From the NCBI GenBank assembly GCA_945873115.1, contig CAMCBT010000006.1, positions 1 to 64,000 on the forward strand: a DNA stretch of 64,000 bases, in the 5' to 3' direction. Made by a program: the position numbers and the translations under genes. The stretch comes from an uncultured Mitsuokella sp. (GTDB lineage Bacteria > Bacillota > Negativicutes > Selenomonadales > Selenomonadaceae). Below, in pieces: positions 26,686-36,317 of the stretch (the first letter of the stretch is position 1; each line of letters starts with the position of its first letter). The notes below the pieces were generated by a model, which saw only the letters and a program-made list of their open reading frames with translations, did not search any database and was not told where the DNA came from.

Positions 26686-27546
26686 GTGCAGGAACAAAAA
26701 AATTTCAAAAAGCCTGTTCTTTTCTTCTGCGCTTTCCTGGTGCTGGCTCTCATTGCCTTTGGCACCTATACCCTTCGCCCCTCGAACAGGGCGGGGACGG
26801 CCCAGGCAGCGACGGAGGCGGCTGCGGTGAGCGTCGGCCAGACGAATGCAGCCCAGAGCATCCTCGTACTCAACTACCACAAGATTGACACCCTCATGCA
26901 CTCCCTCTCCGTGAATCCCAGCGATTTCCGCTGGCAGATGGAGTACCTGAAGAGCCACGGCTACAATACCATAACGCCCGATGACCTCATCGCCAATATG
27001 GAGGAGGGGAAGGCCCTTCCCGTCAATCCGGTGCTCATCACCTTTGACGACGGGTATCTGGATAACTACAAGAATGCCTATCCCGTGCTGAAGGAGCTGG
27101 GCATGAAGGCCACCATCTTCGTGGTGACGGATTTTATGGGGGGCAAGAAGGGGTATCTCGACTGGTCGAAGTGCCGGGAGATGGAGAAGAATGGCATCAC
27201 CATCGCCTCCCATACGGTGGACCACAAGTCCATGACGGATCTCTCGGACGAGCAGCTGCGCCACGAGCTGATAGACTCGAAGAAGGCGGCGGAGGAGGCT
27301 CTGGGCCACAGCGTGGACTACATCGCCTATCCGACGGGAGCCTACAACCTCCACATCGCCGACATGACGAAGGAGGCGGGGTACAAGGCCGCCTTTACCA
27401 TCAAGTACGGCAATGCGGACAAGGAGAGCAATGTCTACGCCATCGAGCGGGTGCCCATCTTTCATACGGAGCACACGAATCGGGACTTTGTGGAGCGCAT
27501 CAGCTACACGCCCCTCTTCCAGCAGTTCGGCTGGAAAAAGGCGTGA
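26686..27546 (+). CDS. Membrane-anchored polysaccharide deacetylase (CE4)
   Basis: 286 residues. One N-terminal membrane anchor (PVLFFCAFLVLALIAFGTYT) is followed by a short linker. The NodB/CE4 domain has ILVLNYHKI, then TFDDGYLDNY (motif 1, catalytic Asp and metal Asp), SHTVDHKSM (motif 2, metal His pair) and YPTGAYN (motif 3). It probably removes acetyl groups from peptidoglycan or an exopolysaccharide outside the membrane. GGGAGGA sits 6 nt before the GTG at 26686; an in-frame TTG at 26671 overlaps that site and is rejected. It has its own promoter and is not coupled to nirJ2. Confidence 0.87.
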   Translation: MQEQKNFKKPVLFFCAFLVLALIAFGTYTLRPSNRAGTAQAATEAAAVSVGQTNAAQSILVLNYHKIDTLMHSLSVNPSDFRWQMEYLKSHGYNTITPDDLIANMEEGKALPVNPVLITFDDGYLDNYKNAYPVLKELGMKATIFVVTDFMGGKKGYLDWSKCREMEKNGITIASHTVDHKSMTDLSDEQLRHELIDSKKAAEEALGHSVDYIAYPTGAYNLHIADMTKEAGYKAAFTIKYGNADKESNVYAIERVPIFHTEHTNRDFVERISYTPLFQQFGWKKA

Positions 27547-27572
27547 GTCTGTAACGCTGGTTACGGAATGGA

Positions 27573-27612
27573 ACGCCTTCCCCATGGTAAGCTGAAGGCG
27601 TGTATTATATTA
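27573..27612 (+). terminator. Possible terminator of the deacetylase gene
   Basis: ACGCCTT (27573-27579) and AAGGCGT (27595-27601) form a 7-bp stem with a 15-nt loop, followed by an A/T-rich but not T-only tail. A smaller GTAAC/GTTAC hairpin lies just before it. Confidence 0.4.
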
Positions 27613-27731
27613 AACTCAACGCACAAACGTCCACTTCGTGGACATTGTGCGCCCGTCCTTGCAGTAAATCCTGCCAATCACGCTGCGCCTGCGGCTTGCG
27701 TTCTTGGGGATTTACATAGTAAAAAGAGAAT
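27613..27731 (-). repeat. Dispersed repeat, copy A
   Basis: About 115 bp which, read on the minus strand, matches the plus strand at 52384-52500 at roughly 70% by eye. Shared blocks include TTTACTA, CCCAAGAA, CAAGCC, TGATTGGC and a near-identical hairpin (GCGCACAATGTCCAC, GAA loop, GTGGAC...TGTGCG). Here one arm of the hairpin differs (GTTTGTGC for ATTGTGC). It carries no convincing gene. Confidence 0.75.
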
Positions 27732-27780
27732 ACGTTCTTCGAGCAAAAGCAGCTAAAGCGATGCCATGCTGCTGCGCCGA

Positions 27781-27842
27781 GGCATTTGCCTCCGGGGCCA
27801 CGCGGGAAACGGCGTGACCTTCCATTGTGAAAAGGAGAAGCC
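27781..27842 (+). promoter_or_regulatory. Probable molybdenum-cofactor (Moco) riboswitch aptamer
   Basis: The RNA has the order of conserved pieces I recall for the Moco motif: GCCTCCGG, GCCACGC, a GGGAAAC loop closed by CACGC/GCGTG, then CCTTCC and a final GGAGAAGCC. GGC...GCC and CTCC/GGAG close the outer stem. A terminator follows 21 nt later, and the gene downstream starts a Mo transport and Moco synthesis operon. In this family Moco binding usually lowers expression. No covariance-model search was run. Confidence 0.75.
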
Positions 27843-27863
27843 AGATTTTCCATGCCCTTTTGG

Positions 27864-27896
27864 AGAGCCGTCTTTTCCATGGACGGCTCTCTTTTT
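27864..27896 (+). terminator. Intrinsic terminator, expression platform of the Moco riboswitch
   Basis: A 9-bp perfect stem (AGAGCCGTC with GACGGCTCT), a 9-nt loop and a T5 tail lie in the 5' leader of modA. This fits transcription attenuation controlled by the upstream aptamer. Confidence 0.85.
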
Positions 27897-27960
27897 GTTG
27901 CCTGTATAGGCCTCTGTAGATTCCTGCCGGGGATGGGTCTTTCTATCAGGAGGTATGGAT

Positions 27961-28749
27961 ATGAATCTCAAACGACTCTTTGGTCTGGCAGTCCTCTCGG
28001 GAGCAATGCTCGTCTCCGGCTGCGGCGGCAATACGGCGACGGCTCCCGGCGAAAAGCCGGTGGAGCTCCATGTGGCAGCGGCGGCGAGCCTGACGGATGC
28101 CATGAAGGAGCTGGCTGCTCTCTACGAGAAGGAGCATCCGAATGTGAAGCTACTCTTTAACTTCGGCTCCAGCGGCGCCCTGCAGCAGGCCATCGAGAAC
28201 GGGGCCCAGACGGATCTTTTCTTCTCCGCGGCCCAGAAGCAGATGGATGCACTGGAAAAGAGCGGCGACCTTCTGGAGGGCACCCGCAGGGATCTCTTGG
28301 AAAACGAGGTGGTGCTCATCGTGCCGAAGGAGGGCGGAATGGATATAAAGTCCTTCGAGGATCTCGCCGACCCCGAGATCGCCCATGTGGCCCTCGGGGA
28401 GCCGAAGGGGGTGCCCGTGGGCCAGTACTCGGAGGAAATCCTCACGAAGCTGGGCCTGCTGGACGCAGTGAAGGCGAAGGCCGTCTATGGCTCCGATGTG
28501 CGCCAGGTGCTCTCCTGGGTGGAGACGGGGGACGCGGATGCCGGCCTCGTCTATGCCACGGATGCGGCGGTGTCGGATAAGGTAAAGGTGGCGGCAAAGG
28601 CCCCCGCCGGCTCCCATAAGCCGGTCATCTATCCGGCGGTCGTGGTGAAGAGCTCGGCCAATGCGGAGGCGGCAAAGGAGTTCCTGGCCTTTGCCCAGAC
28701 GGAGGCGGCAAGAGCTGTATTTGCGAAATATGACTTTGTCGTAAAGTGA
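27961..28749 (+). CDS. modA: Molybdate ABC transporter substrate-binding lipoprotein
   Basis: 262-residue lipoprotein that captures molybdate or tungstate at the cell surface. The signal peptide ends in lipobox LVSGCGG. The mature protein begins LHVAAAASLTDAMKELA, the oxyanion-binding opening of ModA. It continues with NFGSSGALQQAIENGAQTDL and SVVETGDADAG-like (LSWVETGDADAGLVYATDA). The ATG at 27961 has AGGAGG at 7-nt spacing; the ATG at 27955 is only 1 nt away from it. First gene of the operon behind the Moco riboswitch. Confidence 0.95.
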   Translation: MNLKRLFGLAVLSGAMLVSGCGGNTATAPGEKPVELHVAAAASLTDAMKELAALYEKEHPNVKLLFNFGSSGALQQAIENGAQTDLFFSAAQKQMDALEKSGDLLEGTRRDLLENEVVLIVPKEGGMDIKSFEDLADPEIAHVALGEPKGVPVGQYSEEILTKLGLLDAVKAKAVYGSDVRQVLSWVETGDADAGLVYATDAAVSDKVKVAAKAPAGSHKPVIYPAVVVKSSANAEAAKEFLAFAQTEAARAVFAKYDFVVK

Positions 28750-28810: not shown

Positions 28811-29854
28811 ATGCTGGAAGTAACGCTTAAAAAAAAACTGCGGGACTTTACGCTCTCTGTGGATTTCGTGGCGGAGGATGAGGTCTTTGCGCTTCTCGGG
28901 GCCTCGGGCTGCGGCAAGAGCATGACGCTTCGCTGCATCGCCGGGCTCGAGAGACCCGATAGCGGGCGCATCGCGCTGAATGGCCGGGTGCTCTTTGACA
29001 GCAGCAGGGGCATCGACCTGCCGCCCCAGCGACGCCAGGTGGGCTATCTCTTCCAGAACTACGCCCTCTTCCCCGATATGACGGTGCGGGAAAATATCCT
29101 CTTTGCCCTCAGGGGGACGCGGACGGAGAAGGAGCGGATCCTTGAGGAAAATATCGCACGGTTTCATCTGGAGGAGCTCACGGAGGCCTATCCCGCCGCC
29201 CTCTCCGGGGGCCAGCAGCAGCGGGTAGCCCTCGCCCGGATTCTCGCCGCAGGCTCGGAGCTTTTGCTGCTGGACGAGCCCTTCTCGGCCCTGGACTCCC
29301 ATTTGAAATGGCAGCTGGAACTGGAGCTGACGGAGCTGCTCGGGAGCCTCGGCGGTGCGGCTATCCTCGTATCCCACTCCCGGAATGAGGCCTACCGCAT
29401 GGCAAGGCACATCGCCGTGATGGAGCGGGGAGAGCTTATGACCGTATCGGATAGGGAGGAGGTCTTCCGCCATCCCGCCACCCTTTCCGCCGCCCGCCTC
29501 ACGGGCTGCAAGAATGTATCAAAGGCAAGCTATGAGGAGGGGAAGCTTCTGGCGAGGGACTGGGGCCTTTCCCTAAGGCTTCCGGAGAGCGAGGAGGTCG
29601 CCTCTGCCCGCTATGTGGGCATCCGCGCCCACCATCTGGAGCGGGTGGAGGCAATGGGGGAGAATGTCTTTCCCATGGAGGTGGTGCGGGTCATCGAGGA
29701 TGTGTTTTCCTTCCGAATCCTCCTGCGCCCAGTCGGCACGGCAGGGGAGCCCCTCCTCTGGGAGCTGGCGAAGGAGGCTTGGCAGGAAGCGCAAAGCGTG
29801 AGCCCGCTCCTCATCCACCTCCCGCCGGAAAGACTGCTGCTTCTGAGGAGGTGA
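28811..29854 (+). CDS. modC: Molybdate ABC transporter ATP-binding protein
   Basis: 347-residue ATPase that powers molybdate import. It has Walker A GASGCGKS (about 33), the Q-loop FQNYALFPDM, signature LSGGQQQRVALAR, Walker B LLLLDEPFSALD and the switch His in VSHSRNEAYR. The C-terminal part (from about residue 235) is an extra beta domain that in ModC proteins can bind oxyanion; it has a YVGIRAHHLE motif. GGAGGG precedes the ATG at 28811. The order A-C-B differs from the more usual A-B-C. Confidence 0.93.
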   Translation: MLEVTLKKKLRDFTLSVDFVAEDEVFALLGASGCGKSMTLRCIAGLERPDSGRIALNGRVLFDSSRGIDLPPQRRQVGYLFQNYALFPDMTVRENILFALRGTRTEKERILEENIARFHLEELTEAYPAALSGGQQQRVALARILAAGSELLLLDEPFSALDSHLKWQLELELTELLGSLGGAAILVSHSRNEAYRMARHIAVMERGELMTVSDREEVFRHPATLSAARLTGCKNVSKASYEEGKLLARDWGLSLRLPESEEVASARYVGIRAHHLERVEAMGENVFPMEVVRVIEDVFSFRILLRPVGTAGEPLLWELAKEAWQEAQSVSPLLIHLPPERLLLLRR

Positions 29855-29858
29855 CTGC

Positions 29859-30518
29859 ATGGAGCCGGCACCCTTTTTTATCACGTTGAAGACGGCGGCG
29901 GTCTCCACCGCTTTGACCTTTTTCCTCGGCATTGGCCTGGCCTTTTTCGTCCTTCGTATGAAGCGGGGCAAGGGCCTCGCGGATGCCATCATCACGCTGC
30001 CATTGGTGCTTCCGCCGACGGTCGTAGGCTTCTTCCTGTTGCTGACATTTGGCAAGAAGAGCGCTCTCGGCTCCTTCTTGCTGGAGCAGGGAATTGCCCT
30101 GGTCTTCACCTGGAAAGCGGCGGTCATCGCCGCCGTCATCGTGTCGCTGCCCCTCATGTATCGCACGGCGCGGGGGGCCTTTGAGCAGATGGACGAAAAT
30201 ATCCTGGCGGCGGCGAGGACGCTGGGGGTATCGGAGTGGCGGATATTCTGGCACCTCCTCCTGCCGAATGCAAGGCATGGAATCCTCGCGGGTCTGGTGC
30301 TGTCCTTTACAAGGGCCCTGGGGGAGTTCGGCGCCACCATCATGTTTGCCGGCAACATCCCCGGCGTGACCCAGACCATGTCCACAGCCGTCTACGCCGC
30401 CATCCAGGCCAACGACTACGACCTGGCCTTCCAATGGGCCATCGCCCTCGTGGTCTTCTCCCTGTTCTTTGTAGTGCTGATGAACGTATGGATGGGGCAT
30501 CTTTCGCGCAATCAATAA
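29859..30518 (+). CDS. modB: Molybdate ABC transporter permease
   Basis: 219-residue integral membrane protein with about five or six hydrophobic segments. It forms the molybdate channel with ModC. It has the ModB opening LKTAAVSTALTFFLGIGLAF, the LPLVLPPTVVGFFLL stretch and the cytoplasmic EAA loop ARTLGVSEWRIFWHLLLPNA that docks on the ATPase. ALGEFGATIMFAGNIPGVTQ near the end is a strong ModB signature. It begins 4 nt after modC, with GAGGAGG inside the modC end. Confidence 0.94.
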   Translation: MEPAPFFITLKTAAVSTALTFFLGIGLAFFVLRMKRGKGLADAIITLPLVLPPTVVGFFLLLTFGKKSALGSFLLEQGIALVFTWKAAVIAAVIVSLPLMYRTARGAFEQMDENILAAARTLGVSEWRIFWHLLLPNARHGILAGLVLSFTRALGEFGATIMFAGNIPGVTQTMSTAVYAAIQANDYDLAFQWAIALVVFSLFFVVLMNVWMGHLSRNQ

Positions 30519-30535: not shown

Positions 30536-31564
30536 ATGAAAGAGATAAATGTAAGGGATGCGGTGGGGATGGCACTTTGCCATGATATCACACAGATTGT
30601 CCGCGGTGGCGTCAAGGACGCCCGGTTTCGTCGGGGTCACGTCATCACCGAGGAGGATGTGCCCGTCCTGCTGTCTCTCGGCAAGGAGCATATTTTCGTC
30701 TGGGAGGACGAGGAAAATCGGATCCATGAAAACGATGCGGCGGCCATCCTCGCGGACCTTTGCCAGGGGGCAAATATGGAGCGGGGCGAGGTCAAGGAGG
30801 GGAAAATCGAGCTTGCCTCCACAGTGGACGGTGTTTTCCGCGTCGATGCGGAGCATATCGATGCGATAAACGATATGGACGACATGTGCGTTGCGACCCT
30901 TGCAAGCAATATGCCCGTCAAGAAAGGCACGAAGCTCGCCGGCATGCGGGTCATCCCACTCACCATCGAGCTGGAGAAAATGGAGGCGGCAAGGTCGGTC
31001 GCGGGAACGGAGCCGCTTCTTCAGGTGGTGCCCTATCGGAAAATGAAGGTGGGCGTCGTCACCACCGGCTCCGAGGTGGCCCATGGACTGATAAAGGACA
31101 CCTTCACGCCGGTGCTCGCGGCGAAGCTAAAGCCCTTTGGCCTCCGGGTGGATGGACATCGCCTCTCCGACGATGCAAAGGAGCACACCCTGGCCGCCAT
31201 TCAGGAGCTTCTCGCGGAGGGCATGGACATGATTCTCTGCACCGGCGGCATGAGCGTGGATCCCGATGATCGGACGCCGGCAGCTATCCGCGATACGGGG
31301 GCGCGGATTGTCACATACGGTGCCCCGGTACTGCCGGGGGCCATGTTTCTCCTCTCCTATCTGGAGGGGAGCGGGAAATCCATTCCCATCCTGGGCCTGC
31401 CGGGCTGCGTCATGCACGATCCGGCCACCGTCTTCGACATCTTTTTGCCGCGCCTGGTGGCGGGCATCCCCATCAGCCGGCGGGATATCCGAGGGCTGGG
31501 CGTCGGAGGCCTATGCATGCGCTGCAGCACCTGCCATTACCCCATCTGCCCCTTTGGGAAGTGA
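30536..31564 (+). CDS. Molybdopterin-binding (MoeA/MogA-like) protein with a Cys-rich tail
   Basis: 342 residues. The central part (about 165-310) is a MoCF-binding domain: MKVGVVTTGSEVAHGLIKDT, then ILCTGGMSVDPDDRTPAAIR and GLPGCVMHDPATVFD. It lacks the full MoeA domain set and is distinct from the moeA next door. The N-terminal 160 residues resemble a MoeA-like scaffold. The C-terminus ends CMRCSTCHYPICPFGK, four cysteines in 16 residues, which could bind a metal or cluster. Its role may be a regulatory or handling step in Moco insertion; this is a guess from domain and context. Confidence 0.8.
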   Translation: MKEINVRDAVGMALCHDITQIVRGGVKDARFRRGHVITEEDVPVLLSLGKEHIFVWEDEENRIHENDAAAILADLCQGANMERGEVKEGKIELASTVDGVFRVDAEHIDAINDMDDMCVATLASNMPVKKGTKLAGMRVIPLTIELEKMEAARSVAGTEPLLQVVPYRKMKVGVVTTGSEVAHGLIKDTFTPVLAAKLKPFGLRVDGHRLSDDAKEHTLAAIQELLAEGMDMILCTGGMSVDPDDRTPAAIRDTGARIVTYGAPVLPGAMFLLSYLEGSGKSIPILGLPGCVMHDPATVFDIFLPRLVAGIPISRRDIRGLGVGGLCMRCSTCHYPICPFGK

Positions 31565-31568
31565 TACC

Positions 31569-32786
31569 ATGCAAGATATAACGCTCGAAACAGCCGCAGC
31601 CGCCCTCCTCTCGCGGGTGCGCCCGCCTGCCATCGAGGAGCTGCCCCTTCTCTTTCTTCTCGGACGGGTGGCGGCGGAGGATGTATTTGCCAGGATGGAC
31701 AATCCTCCCTTTGACCGGTCGCCCCTCGATGGCTATGCCCTGCGCTCTGCCGATACGGCGGGAGCCACGGCGGCAAAGCCTGCGGCCCTTGCCCTTCTGG
31801 GGGAGGAGTGCGCCGGCGATTTCTACGAGGGGACGGTGCTCCCGGGCTCCTGTCTCCGCATCATGACGGGGGCCGCCATGCCGACGGGCACGGATACGGT
31901 GGTGCGGCAGGAGGATGTGACGCTCTCTGAGGACGAGGGGATGGTGTATATTCCCTATCCTCTCAGACATCACGAGAATTACTGCTTCGCCGGGGAGGAT
32001 GTGAAGGAGGGCGTCTGCCTTGTGAAAAAGGGCAGTCGTTATTCGGCAAGCTCTGTGGCGGTGCTGGCAAGCCAGGGCTACGCGCGGGCCAGGGTCTTTG
32101 CCCGTCCCCGGGTGGCCCTGGCCAGCACGGGAGACGAGCTGGTATCGCCAGGGGAGGCCCTGGCCCCCGGGAAGATTTATAACAGCAATCTCTATCTCGC
32201 GGCAGGGCGGCTTATGGAGCTGGGGCTCACGCCGGTGCTCCTGGGTATCCTGCCGGATGACCCGACGAAGGCGGCCCAGGTGCTTCGGGAGGTGGAGGCG
32301 GATCTCCTACTCACCACCGGCGGCGTCTCCGTGGGGAAGAAGGACATCATGCACCAGGTGGTGCCCATCCTCGGTGCCAAGCGGATTTTTTGGCGGGTCT
32401 GCATGAAGCCTGGGGCTCCTGCCATCGGCTACGAGCTGCCGGACGGCAGGCTGGGTATCGCTCTCTCGGGCAATCCCTTTGCGGCCTTCGCCACCCTCGA
32501 GCTTCTGGCGAGGCCGGTGCTGCGGGCTATGGAGGGCTGCGCTCGGACAGAGCTTCCCCGCCGAAGGGTGGTGCTTCGGGACAGCTTCCCGAAGGAGAGC
32601 CGGGGCCGCCGCTTTATCAGGGCCCGGGTGGAGGGCAATGAGGCGACACTGCCTGACCAGCATGCCTCGGGGGCCCTCTTTTCCGCTGTGGGCTGCAATG
32701 CTTTTCTTGATATCCCGGCCGGGACAGGCCCCCTTTCGGCCGACGCGGAGGCAGAGGCAGTGCTTCTGGGGAGGGACTATGCTTGA
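31569..32786 (+). CDS. moeA: Molybdopterin molybdenumtransferase
   Basis: 405-residue MoeA, which inserts molybdate into adenylylated molybdopterin. Visible signatures are PPFDRSPLDGYALRS (about 45), IMTGAAMPTGTDTVVRQED, ASTGDELVSPGEALAPGKIY and LLTTGGVSVGKKD. MKPGAPAIGYELPDG and GIALSGNPFAAFATLELL make up the MogA-like third domain. The ATG at 31569 comes 5 nt after the previous gene; the open frame extends back to 31266 but lacks homology there. It overlaps moaA by 8 nt. Confidence 0.93.
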   Translation: MQDITLETAAAALLSRVRPPAIEELPLLFLLGRVAAEDVFARMDNPPFDRSPLDGYALRSADTAGATAAKPAALALLGEECAGDFYEGTVLPGSCLRIMTGAAMPTGTDTVVRQEDVTLSEDEGMVYIPYPLRHHENYCFAGEDVKEGVCLVKKGSRYSASSVAVLASQGYARARVFARPRVALASTGDELVSPGEALAPGKIYNSNLYLAAGRLMELGLTPVLLGILPDDPTKAAQVLREVEADLLLTTGGVSVGKKDIMHQVVPILGAKRIFWRVCMKPGAPAIGYELPDGRLGIALSGNPFAAFATLELLARPVLRAMEGCARTELPRRRVVLRDSFPKESRGRRFIRARVEGNEATLPDQHASGALFSAVGCNAFLDIPAGTGPLSADAEAEAVLLGRDYA

Positions 32787-33757: not shown

Positions 33758-34684
33758 ATGGGAAGGATTCATGCGCTTTGCATCAGCGAGAAGAAGGGGA
33801 CGCTCAAGAAGCCCGTCGAAAAAGCACGCTTTATCGTGGAGCATGGCATTGAGGGCGATGCCCACGCGGGACGGTGGCATCGACAGGTGAGCTTCCTGGG
33901 CCTCGGGGAAATCGAGGACTTTCGGAAGCGTGGAGCAAAGGTGGACTTCGGCGCCTTCGGGGAAAATATCGTGGCCGATGGCTTCCACTTCAAGGAGTTT
34001 CCGGTGGGCACGCGGCTCAAGGCCGGGGACGTGGTCTTTGAAATCACCCAGATTGGCAAGAAGTGCCACCAGGGCTGTGCCATCTTCCAGCAGGTGGGAG
34101 ACTGCATCATGCCCCGGGAGGGTGTCTTTGGCCGGGTGCTCCGGGGCGGCACGCTGAAGGTAGGGGACGAGCTCTCCCTCTTTACAGGAAAGCTCCCCCT
34201 CGATGCGGCCATCATCACCGCCAGCGACAAGGGCTCGAAAGGGGAGCGGGAGGATGTGAGCGGCGACACGGTGGAGAGGCTTCTAAAGGAGGCTGGCTAT
34301 ACCCTTGCTGACCGCACCATCCTGCCGGACGAGCAATCGGAGCTGGAGGCGACCCTGCGGGGCTACGCCGATCGGGGCATCGCCCTCGTGCTGACGACAG
34401 GCGGCACGGGCTTTTCGCCTCGGGATGTGACGCCGGAGGCGACGATAGCAGTCTGTGACCGGATGGCACCGGGCATCGCCGAGGCCATGCGGGTAAAGTC
34501 CCTTGCGATTACCCCCCGGGCTATGCTGAGCCGGACGGCGGCAGGTATCGCAAAGCGCACGCTCATCGTAAACCTCCCCGGCAGTCCCAAGGCGGTCACG
34601 GAGTGCCTGGGCTTCATTCTGCCGACGCTGAAGCATGGCATCGATATCCTGCGGGGGGAGACAAGCGAATGCGCGAGGAAGTAA
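33758..34684 (+). CDS. MOSC domain-MogA/MoaB molybdopterin adenylyltransferase fusion
   Basis: 308 residues with two parts. Residues 1 to about 145 form a MOSC domain ([31 protein letters not shown] and [10 protein letters not shown] with the conserved Cys), the sulphur-carrier domain seen in Moco sulphurases and in YiiM/YuaD proteins. Residues about 148-308 are a MogA/MoaB domain ([48 protein letters not shown]) that adenylylates molybdopterin before MoeA acts. The start is 1 nt after the moaA stop codon and has GGGAGG upstream. MOSC-Mog fusions exist elsewhere; in this operon the fusion would supply the Mog step. Confidence 0.88.
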
Positions 34685-36277: not shown

Positions 36278-36317
36278 AGAACCCCCAGCAGTTGACTAGG
36301 CTGCTGGGGGTTCTTTT
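36278..36317 (+). terminator. Terminator of the Moco operon
   Basis: A 14-bp G/C-rich stem (AGAACCCCCAGCAG and its complement from 36301) with a 9-nt loop is followed by TTTT, 7 nt after the fusion gene stop. Confidence 0.93.

Follow-up and report, generated by a model that had tools for sequence, protein, structure and literature searches.

The window, that is, the whole 64,000-nucleotide stretch of DNA analysed here, carries a Moco riboswitch followed by an intrinsic terminator and by eight reading frames for molybdate transport and Moco synthesis, which overlap or lie no more than 61 bases apart and are predicted to be co-transcribed (Table 1). The eight-gene operon of transport and synthesis genes described in the original prediction was found as such, with one switch ahead of both functions, and its assignments of ModABC, MoaA, MoaC, Mog, MoeA and MobA hold by profile matches, modC being assigned by context. 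The ten domains claimed for the operon were an undercount: eleven domain units are present, and the orphan MoeA-like protein (MoCFx), the MOSC domain and MobB had been overlooked. The MobA-MobB-MoaC triple fusion is also a single frame in the sister species (L034); in L038 a stop follows MobB, MoaC lies in another frame and there is no triple fusion. The hairpin that probably ends the operon was not listed by the terminator pattern scan.

Table 1. Features of the riboswitch leader and the molybdenum operon in the window; the aptamer, P3, the terminator and the gene order were computed.
Feature	Position	Strand	Evidence and remarks
Palindrome GTAACGCTGGTTAC	27551..27564		Possible regulator site or remnant
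Probable -10 region TATTATATTA	27603..27612	+	Proposed from comparison with the sister species
~111-bp genome-wide repeat	27613..27724	+	Between probable promoter and aptamer; would be in the transcribed leader
Moco riboswitch aptamer (RF01055)	27725..27853	+	cmscan
P1 5' strand UUCUUC	27735..27740	+	Partner 27834-27839 GGAGAA; CM alignment, folds, pair list
P3 hairpin GAGGC-AUUU-GCCUC	27779..27792	+	CM alignment, sequence; Moco-type marker by the published rule
P1 3' strand GGAGAA	27834..27839	+	CM alignment, folds
Possible antiterminator, version A: UUGGAGAGC, start of terminator 5' arm	27860..27868	+	Can pair with 27734-27742 GUUCUUCGA; growing-transcript folds
Intrinsic terminator hairpin, 12 pairs	27862..27892	+	Terminator scan; T-rich tail 27893-27899 (TTTTGTT)
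Possible antiterminator, version B: CUUUUCC at terminator top	27872..27878	+	Can pair with 27834-27840 GGAGAAG
modA, molybdate-binding protein	27961..28749 (alternative start 27955)	+	TIGR01256 217.6 bits, cut-off 62.5
modC, ABC ATPase	28811..29854	+	TIGR02142 205.6 bits, below equivalog cut-off 285.05; ABC_tran; assigned by context
modB, permease	29859..30518	+	TIGR02141 235.4 bits, cut-off 182.6
Orphan MoeA-like protein (MoCFx)	30536..31564	+	PF00994 MoCF_biosynth and four invariant C-terminal cysteines
moeA	31569..32786	+	MoeA_N, MoCF_biosynth, MoeA_C
moaA	32779..33756	+	TIGR02666 358.8 bits, cut-off 284.05
MOSC-Mog fusion	33758..34684	+	PF03473 and PF00994
MobA-MobB-MoaC fusion, 533 residues	34669..36270	+	PF12804, PF03205, PF01967; no internal stop
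Operon-end hairpin, probable terminator	36278..36314	+	16-pair stem, -30.4 kcal/mol

Scanning the whole window against Rfam with cmscan yielded three matches above the gathering score, namely two tRNAs and one RF01055 (Moco riboswitch) match at 27725-27853 on the + strand, which scores 66.5 bits (E 8.5e-14) against a gathering score of 36 and spans model positions 1-135 of 135 without truncation. The Moco riboswitch predicted ahead of a molybdenum operon, for which a run of the Rfam covariance model had been proposed as the check, is thus present at full length and well above threshold. All five core motifs that had been quoted for it were located (GCCTCCGG at 27788, GCCACGC at 27797, GGGAAAC at 27804, CCTTCC at 27818 and GGAGAAGCC at 27834). 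The range originally assigned to the element, 27781-27896, has to be corrected: the aptamer starts 56 bases further upstream, so that the P1 5' strand, P2 and the opening two bases of P3 fall outside it. In the genome of origin (G000; 2.2 Mb, 99.4% complete) no second RF01055 match was found among the 150 of 218 first-look candidates that were scored. The riboswitch is therefore real, correctly named and an ordinary member of a class that, together with its platform types, is already published. The CM alignment contains several non-standard pairs within the aptamer, a point counted against the switching model developed below; in the hairpin at 27799-27816, sequence comparison and folding reveal an A-U to G-C change in the sister species that keeps the pairing, which was counted in its favour.

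The type of ligand is suggested by the P3 stem. In the accessible text of PMC2408646 (2008), RNAs with a P3 are linked to MPT/Moco synthesis and to Moco enzymes, tungsten-cofactor metabolism genes are reported in 17 of 19 organisms with P3-lacking RNAs, the E. coli moaA RNA is described as mediating repression when Moco is made, and the ligand evidence for the class is genetic. From the order of the helices, we read the helix at 27779-27792 as the P3 of that work. Its presence marks the RNA as Moco-type and not tungsten-type, and Moco is the likely ligand; a response to it is predicted from the family and the architecture.

The region upstream of the aptamer differs from that of the sister species by an insertion. 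In the sister (L011/L034), TATTATATAAAAAAGAGAATACG runs directly into the aptamer with no repeat between them, while here the ~111-bp repeat, absent from the sister leader and matched 47 times in the genome of origin, with some copies adjacent to each other, separates the probable -10 region from the aptamer. The promoter scan of 27400-28100 found no consensus sigma-70 promoter on the + strand. As the -10-like element lies upstream of the repeat, the inserted sequence is probably transcribed with the leader, the switch staying intact. Further upstream, the sister species carries GTAACGCAGGTTAC at the place matching the palindrome, with one change in the centre. As a genome-wide operator this palindrome was rejected, since GTAACGCWGGTTAC has a single exact match in its own genome, that at 27551-27564.

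The terminator hairpin begins eight bases past the end of the aptamer match and is followed by its T-rich tail, which agrees with the original placement of an intrinsic terminator between the aptamer and modA. Shuffled versions of the terminator region yield 0.8 such hairpin hits on average, so that by itself the hairpin counts for little and the evidence lies in its position after the aptamer. In ligand-free folds of the growing transcript, P1 is partly formed until about 27854 and is then displaced; it has all but vanished (probability about 0) at transcript ends 27869-27884, where the terminator arm 27860-27868 is paired with the P1 5' strand 27734-27742 (version A of a possible antiterminator). 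The energetic penalty for a forced P1 is 4.8 kcal/mol at 27872, 5.6 at 27880 and 4.5 at 27884, a modelled range of 4.5-5.6 kcal/mol that the energy of ligand binding could cover. The terminator prevails from about 27890 on, with a pairing of 0.79 at 27890, 0.97 at 27893 and 0.68 at 27899. An alternative helix was also computed between the top of the terminator and the P1 3' strand (version B), assisted by the linker 27846-27852 UUUUCCA, which can pair with 27861-27867 UGGAGAG; in the equilibrium fold of this locus it is scarcely populated, with at most 1.4 pairs.

Both versions were compared across the terminator-type loci of the family. From 81 such loci, L183 and L184 were dropped for want of a recognisable core, leaving 79, and merging eight duplicates gave 71 distinct cases, among which L153, L156 and L174 were kept despite a very short P1 3' segment ahead of the terminator. 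For version B, the terminator top and the P1 3' strand or linker are complementary beyond dinucleotide shuffles at p<=0.05 in 36 of these 71 cases, which include related sequences and are thus not independent, and at p<=0.01 in 16 (median p 0.04); in the same duplex test this locus gives p=0.010. For version A, pairing with the P1 5' strand is significant at p<=0.05 in a single case of the 71, which is this locus itself (p=0.045), and in none at p<=0.01, and over the 79 cases its mean duplex energy is -5.2 kcal/mol against -5.7 for mismatched loci. The two versions therefore disagree: A dominates the local fold without family support, and for B the reverse is true. As a family rule, the P1 5' strand antiterminator is unsupported across the relatives and was set aside, to be kept as a possibility for this locus alone; its attraction stems from the terminator arm GGAGAGCC, which mimics the P1 3' strand GGAGAAGCC.

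Whichever version operates, a P1 strand would be used against the terminator, so that P1 stabilised by Moco would remove the antiterminator strand and turn expression off. The element is probably a transcriptional OFF switch of the Moco type, with P1 and an antiterminator as the predicted competitors. In the proposed mechanism, RNA polymerase would transcribe the leader and the aptamer would fold; with Moco bound, P1 (27735-27740 with 27834-27839) would be held, the stretch from 27862 would be left free and the terminator would form before modA. When Moco is missing, a P1 strand would instead pair with the 5' arm or the top of the terminator, allowing read-through into all eight genes. Molybdate uptake and cofactor synthesis would thereby be shut down together, a feedback that is likely given the family and the architecture.

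Switches of the same aptamer class also occur among relatives. Altogether, 118 RF01055 matches, one of them below the gathering score, come from 68 of 151 family genomes, and the gene that follows is modA in 52, MoCFx in 33 and another gene in 33; the targets are modA or MoeA-like/moeA/moaA genes in 85 of the 118. The terminator test is positive for 20/52 modA, 31/33 MoCFx and 30/33 other matches. In all 32 modA cases that lack a terminator, a start codon stands at Shine-Dalgarno distance after the GGA of the P1 3' strand, and in all 20 that have one, the modA match starts more than 40 bases past the aptamer; both arrangements predict OFF. The former group resembles the translational switch of E. 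coli. With the E. coli moaABCDE leader (RF01055), as far as the accessible text of PMC2408646 describes it, the switch studied here has in common a full-length match, P3, targets in Mo transport or Moco synthesis and the predicted OFF logic, whereas in E. coli P1 appears to hold the ribosome binding site and to act on translation, and here the aptamer precedes an intrinsic terminator, an arrangement of which that text already gives examples for the class. Of the 68 genomes, 19 have one switch for modA and another for synthesis, 32 have a switch at modA but none at the synthesis genes, 14 show the opposite pattern and three have neither. By contrast, this locus and the sister L034 have one switch ahead of a fused mod and synthesis operon, whose gene order is the same in L038, and the claim of one switch over both transport and synthesis appears right for this lineage.

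Some of the family matches precede genes of other kinds. In L144 the match lies before a [NiFe]-hydrogenase small subunit (Pfam NiFe_hyd_SSU_C, 106.3 bits), and by eye the products in L135, L173, L178, L180, L187, L188, L189, L191, L193 and L198 share the N-terminus of the L144 gene product. The [NiFe]-hydrogenase does not use Moco, and its placement under a Moco switch possibly follows an alternative-enzyme logic when Moco is short; the word 'hydrogenase' is absent from the main text of PMC2408646. Matches also precede a FecCD-type permease in L153 (280.3 bits) and a TonB-dependent receptor in L012 (plug 74 bits), with similar downstream genes, by eye, in L156, L159, L182 and L115; these genes perhaps serve molybdate or metallophore uptake. 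Further matches precede a NapC/NirT-type cytochrome in L018, whose N-terminus is shared by the product in L116, and a second type of ABC solute-binding protein (SBP_bac_11) in L139.

These data also bear on readings other than a Moco-dependent OFF switch. Tungsten can be used by related anaerobes, which counts for an RNA responsive to the tungsten cofactor (Tuco), alone or along with Moco, and for an operon that answers to W as well as Mo. The P3 rule is, moreover, a correlation, and the accessible text of PMC2408646 mentions W use in Clostridia and a P3 deletion in E. coli that abolished regulation instead of altering specificity. Such a sensor is nevertheless very unlikely here, as P3 is present in the CM alignment, ModA and ModB score above the molybdate equivalog cut-offs, the WtpA similarity of ModA falls far under the WtpA cut-offs, and the genome encodes a NarG with nitrate-reductase and molybdopterin domains. 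Even less probable is an ON switch, in which Moco binding would block the terminator and raise expression: both alternative helices use P1 strands against the terminator, so that a stabilised P1 frees it, the P1 3' strand bears the GGA ahead of the start codon in every terminator-less modA case (32/32), and feedback on uptake and synthesis suits OFF. Nothing specific to this locus speaks for an ON switch, although the 33 of 118 family matches with downstream genes other than modA and the MoeA-like gene, including the [NiFe]-hydrogenase small subunit, suggest that the direction need not be uniform.

A degenerate leader, in which the repeat insertion has cut off the promoter from the switch, leaving the operon constitutive or read from elsewhere, would account for the position of the repeat between the -10-like element and the aptamer and for a promoter scan of 27400-28100 without a + strand consensus. 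We give this reading the least credence, given that the aptamer, the terminator and all eight reading frames are intact, that the -10-like element still lies upstream of the insert, and that the insert may merely lengthen the leader. A Moco-responsive OFF switch is thus the reading retained for the operon.

The first gene of the synthesis part of this operon, directly preceded by a Moco riboswitch match in 33 of the 118 family cases, encodes MoCFx. Ahead of its MoCF_biosynth domain lies an N-terminal part that no Pfam model matches, and its tail reads CxxCxxC-x-YPxC, with C327, C330, C333 and C338 invariant in 21/21 aligned sequences. Its nearest named relatives come from an uncultured Mitsuokella sp. 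MAG (87% identity) and, next, from Selenomonas felix (68%), which makes a Mitsuokella-like member of the Selenomonadaceae (Bacillota) the probable source of the window. Foldseek searches with an AlphaFold2 model (pLDDT 90.4) place gephyrin-E and Cnx1E first among PDB entries and E. coli MoeA below them; these matches span several domains with poor overall superposition (rmsd ~21), and the match to MoaB covers ~140 residues at an rmsd of ~2.7. MoCFx is best read as a MoeA relative, and its MoeA/gephyrin-E-like fold points to a possible role in metal insertion.

With MoaA, MoaC, Mog, MoeA, MobA and MobB, the operon shares most steps with the MoaD/MoaE pathway, and, as judged from profile matches, it has everything for Moco but molybdopterin synthase. 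MoaE (PF02391) has no match in the 99.4% complete genome, and neither has MoaD (ThiS family, PF02597) at E<=0.001, whereas each model is positive in 11 of 14 control genomes, although the MoaE model might fail to pick up a very divergent MoaE. The operon instead contains a MOSC domain, and NarG as well as a second molybdopterin oxidoreductase are encoded in the genome despite the lack of MoaE and MoaD matches. MoaE is likewise without a match in 149 of the 151 family genomes. As far as their accessible texts go, this gap has been noted for MoaD/MoaE in Dehalobacter, where MOSC proteins were suggested as a substitute (PMC4751268), for MoaD/MoaE in acetogens (PMC5039349) and for moaE only in Geobacter metallireducens (PMC2700814). 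In the literature searched, no paper testing MOSC as molybdopterin synthase was found. The gap itself is therefore already in print, and what is new here is the phylum-wide count of MoaE and MOSC together with a cysteine signature.

For this count, 249 genomes of the phylum, each at least 90% complete, were surveyed, in which MoaC was found in 175, MOSC in 170, MoCFx in 91 and MoaE in 29, the last divided by us into 15 strong (E 3.2e-23 or better) and 14 weak (5.8e-10 or worse) cases. MoaC occurs without a MoaE match in 146 of the 175 genomes, and 144 of these 146 encode MOSC, which is found in 3 of the 74 genomes without MoaC. MoCFx was considered as the best MoaE substitute and rejected: it is present in 81 of the 146 MoaC-positive, MoaE-negative genomes and also in 8/14 weak-MoaE and 1/15 strong-MoaE genomes, so that MOSC is the better candidate. 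MOSC is, however, also encoded in 12/15 strong-MoaE and 11/14 weak-MoaE genomes, and may simply accompany Mo use.

The MOSC domains of the two groups differ in location and in sequence. In genomes with both MoaC and MOSC among the matches listed, MOSC lies within 3 kb of MoaC in 85/107 MoaE-less, 5/6 weak-MoaE and 0/6 strong-MoaE genomes. Residues C103, H104, C107 and C116 (window numbering) are aligned in 20/20 MOSC domains from MoaE-less genomes, which were hand-picked from the upper part of the list, one per genome and spread over families, whereas in all 18 domains from strong-MoaE genomes among the matches listed (12 of the 15 genomes) the first cysteine alone is kept. The resulting CHx(2-3)C...C signature is present in 20/20 MoaE-less and 0/18 strong-MoaE domains, the two groups that the comparison covered; a strict regular expression misses 2 of the 20, which carry a one-residue insertion, and the aligned columns hold all four residues in each. 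The same four residues are invariant in 41 aligned MOSC domains, comprising that of the window and those encoded beside MoCFx. Phylogeny is a confounder, since lineage may account for the distribution of both strong MoaE and the other MOSC type.

We tentatively propose, as a possible if rather doubtful reading, that the operon makes molybdopterin without MoaD/MoaE, and that the dithiolene sulfurs reach cPMP by insertion or delivery through the Cys-His-x(2-3)-Cys...Cys MOSC subtype, which is encoded alongside Mog and MoaC and may act together with the four-cysteine MoeA-like protein. As a case of single-point feedback, the locus offers one Moco riboswitch that would cover both uptake and synthesis, and the switch is useful for read-through assays because its relatives provide translational as well as terminator platforms. 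Its larger value lies in a riboswitch-controlled operon that represents a compact Moco pathway without MoaD/MoaE, which makes the documented gap in these anaerobes, the sulfuration of cPMP, directly testable. If the proposal is true, most Mo-using members of the phylum would rely on the MOSC route as their general solution for molybdopterin synthase.
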